A stretch of DNA of 64,000 nucleotides, from positions 1-64,000 of the forward strand of contig CALVTE010000003.1 in the NCBI GenBank assembly GCA_944360075.1. The letters run 5' to 3'. This stretch comes from an uncultured Clostridia bacterium. Its GTDB lineage: Bacteria > Bacillota > Clostridia > Christensenellales > UBA1242. Under the pieces are notes generated by a model. That model did not search any database. It saw only the letters and a program-made list of their open reading frames with translations, and had not been told where the DNA came from. Made by a program: the position numbers and the translations under genes. Positions within the stretch are counted from its first letter, which is position 1, and every line of letters starts with the position of its first letter. This document shows positions 432 through 1,353 of this stretch, one piece after another.

Positions 432-499
432 TATAGTTTATACTCATTTCGGAGCGTATGATTAAGAGTCGAATGCTCTACCAACTGAGCTAGCAGTCC
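432..499 (-). pseudogene. Truncated tRNA-Lys(CTT)-like remnant
   Basis: Read on the minus strand from 499, the sequence GGACTGCTAGCTCAGTTGG begins a tRNA-Lys-like 5' half with an intact D arm (GCTC/GAGC). It continues through the anticodon stem TTCGA and the loop CTCTTAA with a CTT anticodon. After the loop, at about 460, homology stops: the 3' anticodon strand, variable loop, T arm and acceptor 3' strand are absent. Its 5' half matches the units of the adjacent array better than it matches the intact tRNA-Lys, so it is the probable uninterrupted relative of those units. Confidence 0.8.
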
Positions 500-522: not shown

Positions 523-635
523 CCAGGGTTCTCGCCCTGGACCCTTCGATTTAATTCCGCCTATGGCTCCATACGCAGACCCTTTGGGTCTTGGCGCTGC
601 GTCGAATGCTCTTGCCAACTTGAGCTAGCAGTCCA
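523..635 (-). repeat. tRNA-like unit 1 with anticodon-loop insert
   Basis: From 635 downwards: GGACTGC, D arm GCTC-AAGTTGGCAA-GAGC, anticodon 5' strand TTCGA, an insert of 52 nt, anticodon 3' strand TCGAA, variable loop GGGTC, and T-like hairpin CCAGGG-CGAGAA-CCCTGG. The insert carries the hairpin AGACCC-AAA-GGGTCT, a second hairpin TATGG/CCATA, and an outer CGCC/GGCG pairing. The two halves of the anticodon stem remain complementary across the insert. Confidence 0.75.
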
Positions 636-657
636 TACTTTGTTTGATTTTTTTGTT

Positions 658-768
658 CCAGGGTTCTCGCCCTGGACCCTTCGATTTAATTTCGCCTTTG
701 GCTCCATACGCAGGCCTTGCGGCCTTGGCGCTGCGTCTTATGCTCTTGCCAACTTAAGCTAGCAGTCC
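658..768 (-). repeat. tRNA-like unit 2, decayed anticodon stem
   Basis: Same architecture as unit 1, but the 5' anticodon strand is changed (TAAGA against TCGAA) and one D-stem base is altered, so the anticodon stem no longer pairs. The insert hairpin is AGGCC-GCAA-GGCCT. Confidence 0.7.
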
Positions 769-792
769 ATACTTTGTTTGATTTTTTTTGTT

Positions 793-903
793 CCAGGGTT
801 CTCGCCCTGGACCCTTCGATTTAATTCCGCCTTTGGCTCCATACGCAGGCCTTGCGGCCTTGGCGCTGCATCGAATGCTCTTGCCAACTTGAGCTAGCAG
901 TCC
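793..903 (-). repeat. tRNA-like unit 3 with anticodon-loop insert
   Basis: Same architecture as unit 1 with an intact TTCGA/TCGAA anticodon stem and a 51-nt insert. The insert hairpin is AGGCC-GCAA-GGCCT, which differs from unit 1 by a base-pair-preserving change. Confidence 0.75.
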
Positions 904-926
904 ATACTTTGTTTGATTTTTTTGTT

Positions 927-1001
927 CCAGGGTTCTCGCCCTGGACCCTTCGATTTAATTCCGCCTATGGCTCCATACGCAGGCCTTGCGGCCTTGGCGC
1001 T
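927..1001 (-). repeat. tRNA-like unit 4, lacking its 5' half
   Basis: The T-like hairpin, variable loop, 3' anticodon strand and most of the insert are present. The sequence departs from the repeat at about 1001, inside the insert, so the D arm and 5' acceptor strand are missing. On the minus strand this is the promoter-proximal unit. The 120 nt between it and the promoter show no further recognisable element. Confidence 0.7.
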
Positions 1002-1173: not shown

Positions 1174-1353
1174 TTATTCAATCTTATCTTCAGTTATTGT
1201 GCCGTAAATATTTTCAAATTCTTTGACGTGTTTTTTGATAAGTTGTTCAATTTCTTTATTTTTTGTTCGTCCATAATAATTTGAAATGTATTCCATTTTT
1301 GACAAAAGGTCCTTTGAAGTCCTAAGAGTAAACCTTGAATAGTTGTTTTTCAT
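1174..1353 (-). CDS. Arc-type ribbon-helix-helix DNA-binding protein (59 aa)
   Basis: A 59-codon minus-strand gene starts with ATG at 1353, preceded by AAAAGGAG at good spacing. Residues 5-11 (YSRFTLR) form the beta strand typical of Arc/MetJ repressors. Two helices follow, about 13-25 (SKDLLSKMEYISNYYG) and 29-46 (TKNKEIEQLIKKHVKEFE). Such proteins bind operators as dimers or tetramers. Its stop lies 16 bp before the -35 box of the promoter driving the tRNA-like array, so local regulation is conceivable but unproven. The family assignment rests on the pattern of the fold; the target is unknown. Confidence 0.7.
   Translation of the reverse strand: MKNNYSRFTLRTSKDLLSKMEYISNYYGRTKNKEIEQLIKKHVKEFENIYGTITEDKIE

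Follow-up and report, generated by a model that had tools for sequence, protein, structure and literature searches.

What is a series of tRNA-like units, each with a structured insert in place of its anticodon loop, doing in front of an intact tRNA gene? Such an array lies on the minus strand near the start of the window (here, the whole 64 000-nt stretch of DNA analysed), which belongs to the 0.9-Mb genome of an uncultured Clostridia bacterium of the gut (G000). The first-pass annotation had described four tandem copies, and Tandem Repeats Finder bore this out (468–1001, period 135, 4.0 copies, 94% matches), with unit starts spaced 135, 135 and 134 nt. The possibility raised there that the copies result from an assembly artefact is unlikely, given that the units are not identical and that homologous arrays exist in independent genomes (three units in G028).

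All features of the locus are on the minus strand and are given in that direction. A sigma-70-type promoter, TTGACA-17-TATAAT, at 1158–1130 agrees with the consensus at 12/12 positions and points toward the array and tRNA-Lys; then come the array (about 1008–500), a partial tRNA-Lys copy, the intact tRNA-Lys and a terminator-like hairpin. Unit 1 (about 1008–904) is truncated at its 5′ end and begins inside its insert (948–1008; 84 bits with covariance model R1, built from 16 aligned inserts), after which follow a tRNA 3′-like part, a T-like hairpin and an A-rich linker. Unit 2 (769–903) consists of a tRNA-Lys 5′ half, an insert (814–874), a T-like hairpin and a linker; unit 3 (635–768; insert 679–739, anticodon 5′ strand TAAGA) and unit 4 (500–634; insert 544–604) are built in the same way, and R1 matches all three. 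Unit 0 (446–499), by our reading of the letters, is a partial tRNA-Lys copy with no insert: it holds the acceptor 5′ strand, the D arm and the 5′ part of the anticodon arm, and ends in CATACGCTCCGAAATGAG. The intact tRNA-Lys(CTT), anticodon CUU, occupies 426–351 (ARAGORN; 74.3 bits with the Rfam tRNA model), and a hairpin with a T run, read by us as resembling an intrinsic terminator, follows at 346–322. Since the array lies between a promoter and an intact tRNA-Lys with its terminator, it is the predicted 5′ leader of this tRNA. The first-pass annotation had mentioned neither the intact tRNA-Lys, the terminator-like hairpin nor the perfect promoter; nor had it noted that the inserted domain is commoner before tRNA-Asn.

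Two further observations concern the surroundings of the array. Directly upstream of the promoter is a 59-aa ORF (1174–1353, minus strand) with a marginal Pfam match to TraY (E 2.1e-4, 21.7 bits with a cut-off of 21.3); by eye, this small gene also lies before the Lys locus of G017, G028 and G036. The tail of unit 0 (446–475, minus strand, CATACGCTCCGAAATGAGTATAAACTA) is identical in the window and in G028 (L038, near the 3′ end) despite the units of these two genomes being only 82–86% identical, and a part of this tail is complementary to GCGTATG of the motif.

The three full units share the acceptor 5′ strand GGACTGC, a D-arm-like hairpin, an insert of about 52 nt, TCGAA, a T-like hairpin and an A-rich linker. 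The architecture initially proposed, with acceptor 5′ strand and D-arm-like hairpin kept, the anticodon loop replaced and the acceptor 3′ strand exchanged for a linker, is therefore present in the full units. Two of its details held in part: the split anticodon stem TTCGA/TCGAA is intact in two of the three full units but the third reads TAAGA, and the T-like hairpin exists but is devoid of the T-loop consensus. As functional tRNAs the units do not qualify: ARAGORN and Rfam at gathering thresholds (RF00005) found only the tRNA at 426–351/354, while a permissive Rfam search added a partial 16.6-bit tRNA match in unit 0. No Rfam family except tRNA reaches threshold in the window, and permissive searches of the array and of 18 loci gave, beyond tRNA, no more than weak matches, in agreement with the earlier statement that no such bacterial family is known. 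Four weak matches to TMV_UPD-PK3 at the 3′ end of the insert (16.5 bits, gathering 34) we read as chance, likewise the other weak Rfam matches in the 18 loci.

The insert folds into two hairpins, with what is left of the anticodon stem closing both. P1 (NCGC-CA-AGNNN...NNNCU-GCGU) has a CA bulge between its NCGC/GCGU lower stem and its upper stem; P2 (AY-GNA-GC...GC-GNA-RU) has a GNA/GNA internal loop. The fold of a single unit is better than that of shuffled sequences (z −2.59, with 1 of 200 shuffles as good); its centroid structure contains P1 and the tip of P2, and its minimum-energy structure differs around P1. Covariation was assessed on 81 distinct rows (from 86 aligned copies) and 15 pairs, with 500 shuffles and slid controls. 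The share of paired cells was 95.7% (87.6% shuffled), 8/15 pairs had changes on both sides (4.1 shuffled), 106 cells had such changes (27.9 shuffled) and the covariation score was 0.242 (0.113 shuffled); none of the 500 shuffles reached any of these values, a control that leaves kinship in, with the pair changes spread over many genomes and occurring even between units of the window array. In the slid controls, at most 44% of cells were paired. The number of further pair types did not differ (15 against 14.7 shuffled, 81 rows).

Individual pairs show the same. One pair of the P1 upper stem is G-C in 35 rows and A-U in 35, and the next is A-U in 43, C-G in 22 and G-C in 5; the alignment was fitted to the R1 structure (P1 and the top of P2), so pair counts in these two parts are biased toward it. 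The lower P2 pairs and the internal loop lie outside R1, and here the second lower pair covaries (U-A 62, C-G 16 of 81 rows) and the internal loop, in 6/6 rows that have lost a base, has lost one from both sides jointly. Within the window array itself, the P1 upper stem of unit 4 has compensatory changes relative to the other units. P1 and P2 covary, but the CGCC/GGCG closing stem of the original description does not: its score of 0.039 equals that of the shuffles, and 38 of the 52 scored rows leave the fourth pair open. The shape of the domain looks to have been preserved by selection, covariation on its own being no proof of an RNA role.

When 61 genomes were searched by BLAST with one unit, G017, G022, G028 and G029 proved to have homologous Lys units, and other places matched the insert only; the same insert was present within tRNA-Asn-like units directly upstream of tRNA-Asn(GTT), including in the window's own genome (G000:C8). 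A covariance-model search of relatives, the check suggested with the first description, gave matches with conserved pairing in related genomes, which supports the first description of a tRNA-Lys-derived repetitive RNA with a structured anticodon-loop insert. R1 matched in 46 of 309 family genomes: 41 of the window's genus, three of g39 and two of g40. One of the 41, in G034 (L143), has no tRNA in its locus, looks coding and is likely false; it was left out before the count of 86 copies and all later counts. Model R2, built from the 86 copies, matched in 46 of 112 genus genomes (30 of the 72 of good quality), the match in G018 having no tRNA in its locus and looking like a false match to a coding region. 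As fewer than half of the genus genomes have matches, the domain is dispensable rather than essential. In a sample of the order (297 genomes) R1 matched in only seven, all of the window's genus and with its own genome among them. Across the phylum (398 genomes, own genome included) eight other genomes gave weak matches (E 4e-4 to 7e-3), which we read as noise because none of the eight loci has a tRNA. A scan of a one-genome-per-species collection with the exact pattern returned 35 stretches, all assigned to Clostridia or Firmicutes by their titles alone.

Fifty-one of the 86 aligned copies are upstream of an intact tRNA-Asn(GTT), tRNA-Lys(CTT) or tRNA-Lys(TTT), and six are downstream of tRNA-Asn; the remaining 29 are no more than 376 nt from a contig end, which prevents assignment to a tRNA and indicates that these repeats often break assemblies. 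All 57 placeable copies adjoin a tRNA gene and have its orientation, and no convincing copy outside a tRNA context was found in the 309 family, 112 genus and 398 phylum genomes or, judged by titles, in the pattern scan. The downstream copies, inspected by eye, are located 3′ of the tRNA terminator, and the tRNA half fused to them is the 3′ one rather than the 5′ one. A D-arm-like hairpin is present in 36 of the 51 upstream units. Many loci have a single unit; tandem arrays recur, often at contig ends. Among 48 first-unit leaders the best promoter match has TTGAC(A/T) in 44 and a 17-nt spacer in 46; the promoter score alone was no better than that of the best of 20 shuffles (at least 10/12 in 45/48 real and 45/48 shuffled leaders).

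We compared 29 Asn leaders between species (406 pairs; shuffled sequences give identities of 0.47–0.51). Mean identity was 0.91 for the tRNA, 0.74 for the motif, 0.72 for the D-arm half and 0.64 for an antisense segment described below; the linker (0.53), terminator (0.52), upstream leader (0.50) and trailer (0.50) were at about the shuffled level, so that divergence is near saturation in the flanks but not in the motif. For 81 of 85 copies, the closest counterpart in another genome had the same tRNA type (19/21 Lys, 62/64 Asn; of the two Asn exceptions one was a tie), and the genome's own copy of the other type was closer in 1 of 31 comparisons. This pattern indicates inheritance at each tRNA locus, not recent movement; the loci represent related species and are not independent events.

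Most Asn leaders contain, 3′ of the domain, a segment antisense to nearly the whole anticodon arm of the tRNA that they belong to. In an ungapped test with 300 shuffles per locus the match was better than shuffled at p < 0.01 in 20 and at p < 0.05 in 25 of 33 loci, some of these leaders being near-identical; of the eight loci that failed (p 0.11–0.36), six have one inserted base within it. Site 26/27 of the tRNA is variable and could be read in 28 of the 33 loci; in 25 of these 28 the antisense agrees with its own tRNA there: CA goes with TG in 13 and CG with CG in 12, with three exceptions, and gene conversion or relatedness could contribute to this agreement. In the folding model the 5′ strand of the anticodon arm of tRNA-Asn pairs into the leader with a mean probability of 0.89 (33 loci), compared with 0.10 for shuffled leaders and 0.00 for 27 motif-less leaders (L213 and L227, which hold decayed units, being omitted). 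The probability of the anticodon stem itself proved uninformative as a measure of trapping: it is 0.10 for tRNA-Asn alone and 0.05 in 29 motif-less loci, which means that the model folds unmodified tRNA-Asn poorly anyway, and pairing into the leader was used in its place.

The Lys loci behave differently. In the five that were folded (the window and four others) the anticodon arm was not paired into the leader (P ≤ 0.06), so that the antisense to the anticodon arm looks specific to Asn. In the window, whole-tRNA pairing into the leader was 0.02–0.10, below that of shuffles (0.06–0.25), and the folding model predicts that the tRNA-Lys cloverleaf forms and that the window leader does not trap its anticodon arm. 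The four other Lys loci had values of 0.14–0.30, somewhat above their shuffles (0.06–0.18).

Structured tRNA fragments of other kinds were seen around tRNA genes of this lineage. In the window's genome four tandem trailer units lie downstream of tRNA-fMet (L245, G000:C5:29557-29940); mostly, each comprises a terminator, an antisense of the 3′ part of the anticodon arm, a GGA/GGA hairpin and a tRNA 3′ end (CCGCAACCA). The exact GGA/GGA hairpin pattern occurs in four of 112 genus genomes (G000, G017, G028 and G104); in two of the three other than G000 it stands behind an fMet 3′ end, with no intact tRNA found in the locus. Fragments of the 3′ half of tRNA-Asn or tRNA-Lys, with other structured inserts, many of them in the T loop, follow the tRNA in L052, L129, L145, L197, L202, L204, L210, L215, L230 and L239–L241, and a string near CCCGTTCCGGCGG that recurs in these 3′-half fragments suggests a second conserved insert. 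L052 (G031:C80:840-1042) combines a motif-less tRNA-Lys leader, which contains an antisense to nearly the entire D arm, with a downstream tRNA-Lys 3′ fragment whose T loop has a long insert. The leaders of tRNA-Asn in the genus, with or without a unit, often contain a hairpin and a pyrimidine box with CCCTC (TCATATTTCCCTCA, GTTCCATCCCTCTTCTTT, CTCCCTCCCTAACTG; L187, L202, L212, L216, L218, L221, L225, L226 and others), perhaps another leader element of tRNA-Asn. The fMet trailer units and the diverse inserts show that surrounding tRNA genes with structured tRNA fragments is a wider habit of the lineage, and any explanation has to account for it.

We tentatively favor, at somewhat less than an even chance, the reading that the domain is a structured RNA, specific to this lineage, that acts in cis on the folding, 5′ processing or supply of its tRNA. 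The position between promoter and tRNA, the conserved structure, conservation above the flanks, inheritance at the locus and the antisense complementarity can be read directly from the sequence; transcription, a ligand or partner and a regulatory outcome are inferred. The array would then be part of the predicted primary transcript of tRNA-Lys, with each unit a tRNA 5′ half whose anticodon loop has been turned into a structured RNA domain. The domain would act on the precursor of the following tRNA, probably by binding a protein or a small molecule, and in the Asn version the antisense of the anticodon arm could pair alternatively with the unit or with the tRNA. A conserved and covarying structure between promoter and gene is indeed present, as is typical for leader RNAs; the copies 3′ of the tRNA terminator do not fit a leader acting in cis, and the unpaired Lys anticodon arms and the presence in 46 of 112 genus genomes also speak against it. 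Among known leaders, the T box, defined by a Stem I with specifier and a T-box sequence, is similar in being a leader RNA upstream of a translation-related gene, and the Asn antisense includes a complement of the anticodon; unlike it, the array domain precedes tRNA genes themselves, the Asn linkers have no terminator by eye, and no T-box match was found by Rfam in the array or the 18 loci. The thrS leader of E. coli, a tRNA-mimicking operator before a synthetase mRNA, also has tRNA-like arms, whereas here such arms stand before tRNA genes and the anticodon loop is replaced.

The patchy presence in the genus could also reflect a structured selfish or palindromic insert that enters the loops of duplicated tRNA segments and keeps its structure for its own spread. 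Several different inserts that occupy anticodon or T loops in tRNA fragments next to tRNA-Asn and tRNA-Lys, and the P2-like GGA/GGA hairpin in the tandem tRNA-fMet 3′-end units of G000 and in 3 of 111 other genus genomes, would suit such an element, and group I introns and some integrases likewise use the anticodon loop as their site. We nevertheless find this account rather unlikely: the placeable copies (57/86) are all beside a tRNA gene in its orientation, nearest neighbors are of the same type in 81/85 cases with the own-genome copy of the other type closer in 1/31, and viral contigs gave 0 matches to the exact motif pattern. Nor do known elements of this sort correspond. Group I introns do sit in the anticodon loops of bacterial tRNAs, but they have a catalytic core of about 200 nt or more; here the insert is about 50 nt, an intact tRNA is present and the unit has no tRNA 3′ acceptor strand, and no group I match was obtained at E up to 5 (340–1180) or 0.5 (18 loci). 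Rickettsia palindromic elements resemble the inserts in being small and palindromic and in belonging to a small-genome lineage; unlike these repeats, which are dispersed in protein and RNA genes, the placed copies here (57/57 placeable, of 86) are limited to tRNA-gene flanks, have one orientation and are inherited by locus.

The antisense in the Asn leaders invites a narrower idea, an RNA switch controlling the tRNA: the domain would set whether the antisense is held in the leader or invades the anticodon arm, turning maturation of tRNA-Asn on or off, and Lys leaders would use the same sensing domain with another output. The perfect complement of the anticodon loop, TTAACAG, is present in none of the 33 Asn leaders, as if full pairing had been selected against; by eye, it is present in some copies behind the tRNA. 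We regard such a switch as unlikely.

A role in trans seems similarly doubtful. Units cut from the precursor might serve as small RNAs, mimicking tRNA or acting as decoys for a synthetase, a modification enzyme or an anticodon nuclease, with tandem copies raising the dose. Self-contained units separated by A-rich linkers, the recurrence of tandem arrays, a D-arm half conserved above background (0.72) and the D-arm-like hairpin in 36 of 51 upstream units would agree with this, but the units have no acceptor 3′ strand, T-loop consensus or anticodon, and many loci have a single unit. The nearest precedent is rtT of E. coli tyrT, a repeat of the tRNA-Tyr 3′ end in the 3′ trailer of the tRNA, on which no paper was found in the open-licence literature searched. 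It shares with our arrays the tandem units containing a piece of tRNA within the transcript of a tRNA gene, and the likeness is strongest for the tRNA-fMet trailer array of G000; it differs in being a 3′ trailer built on a tRNA 3′ end, whereas here the units are mainly in a 5′ leader, with a tRNA-Lys or tRNA-Asn 5′ half and a covarying domain, and rtT had no match in the array or the 18 loci. Finally, neutral tandem tRNA-Lys pseudogenes, the expanded family that the first-pass annotation had allowed for, are very improbable: truncated copies, the partial unit 0 and variable copy number would be expected of them, but they are contradicted by the strong covariation, by conservation across species amid saturated flanks and by the compensatory P1 difference within the array.

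We are aware of no bacterial tRNA gene known to have, within its own leader, an RNA domain that is conserved and covaries; we found no description of one in the literature, a search limited to open-licence papers and therefore weak evidence of absence. The units are a natural example of a tRNA anticodon stem that has received a structured domain as a graft, and they belong to a lineage in which structured fragments derived from tRNA often flank the tRNA genes. If the domain acts in cis, an RNA structure would control the supply of individual tRNAs, those for Asn and Lys, in these bacteria.
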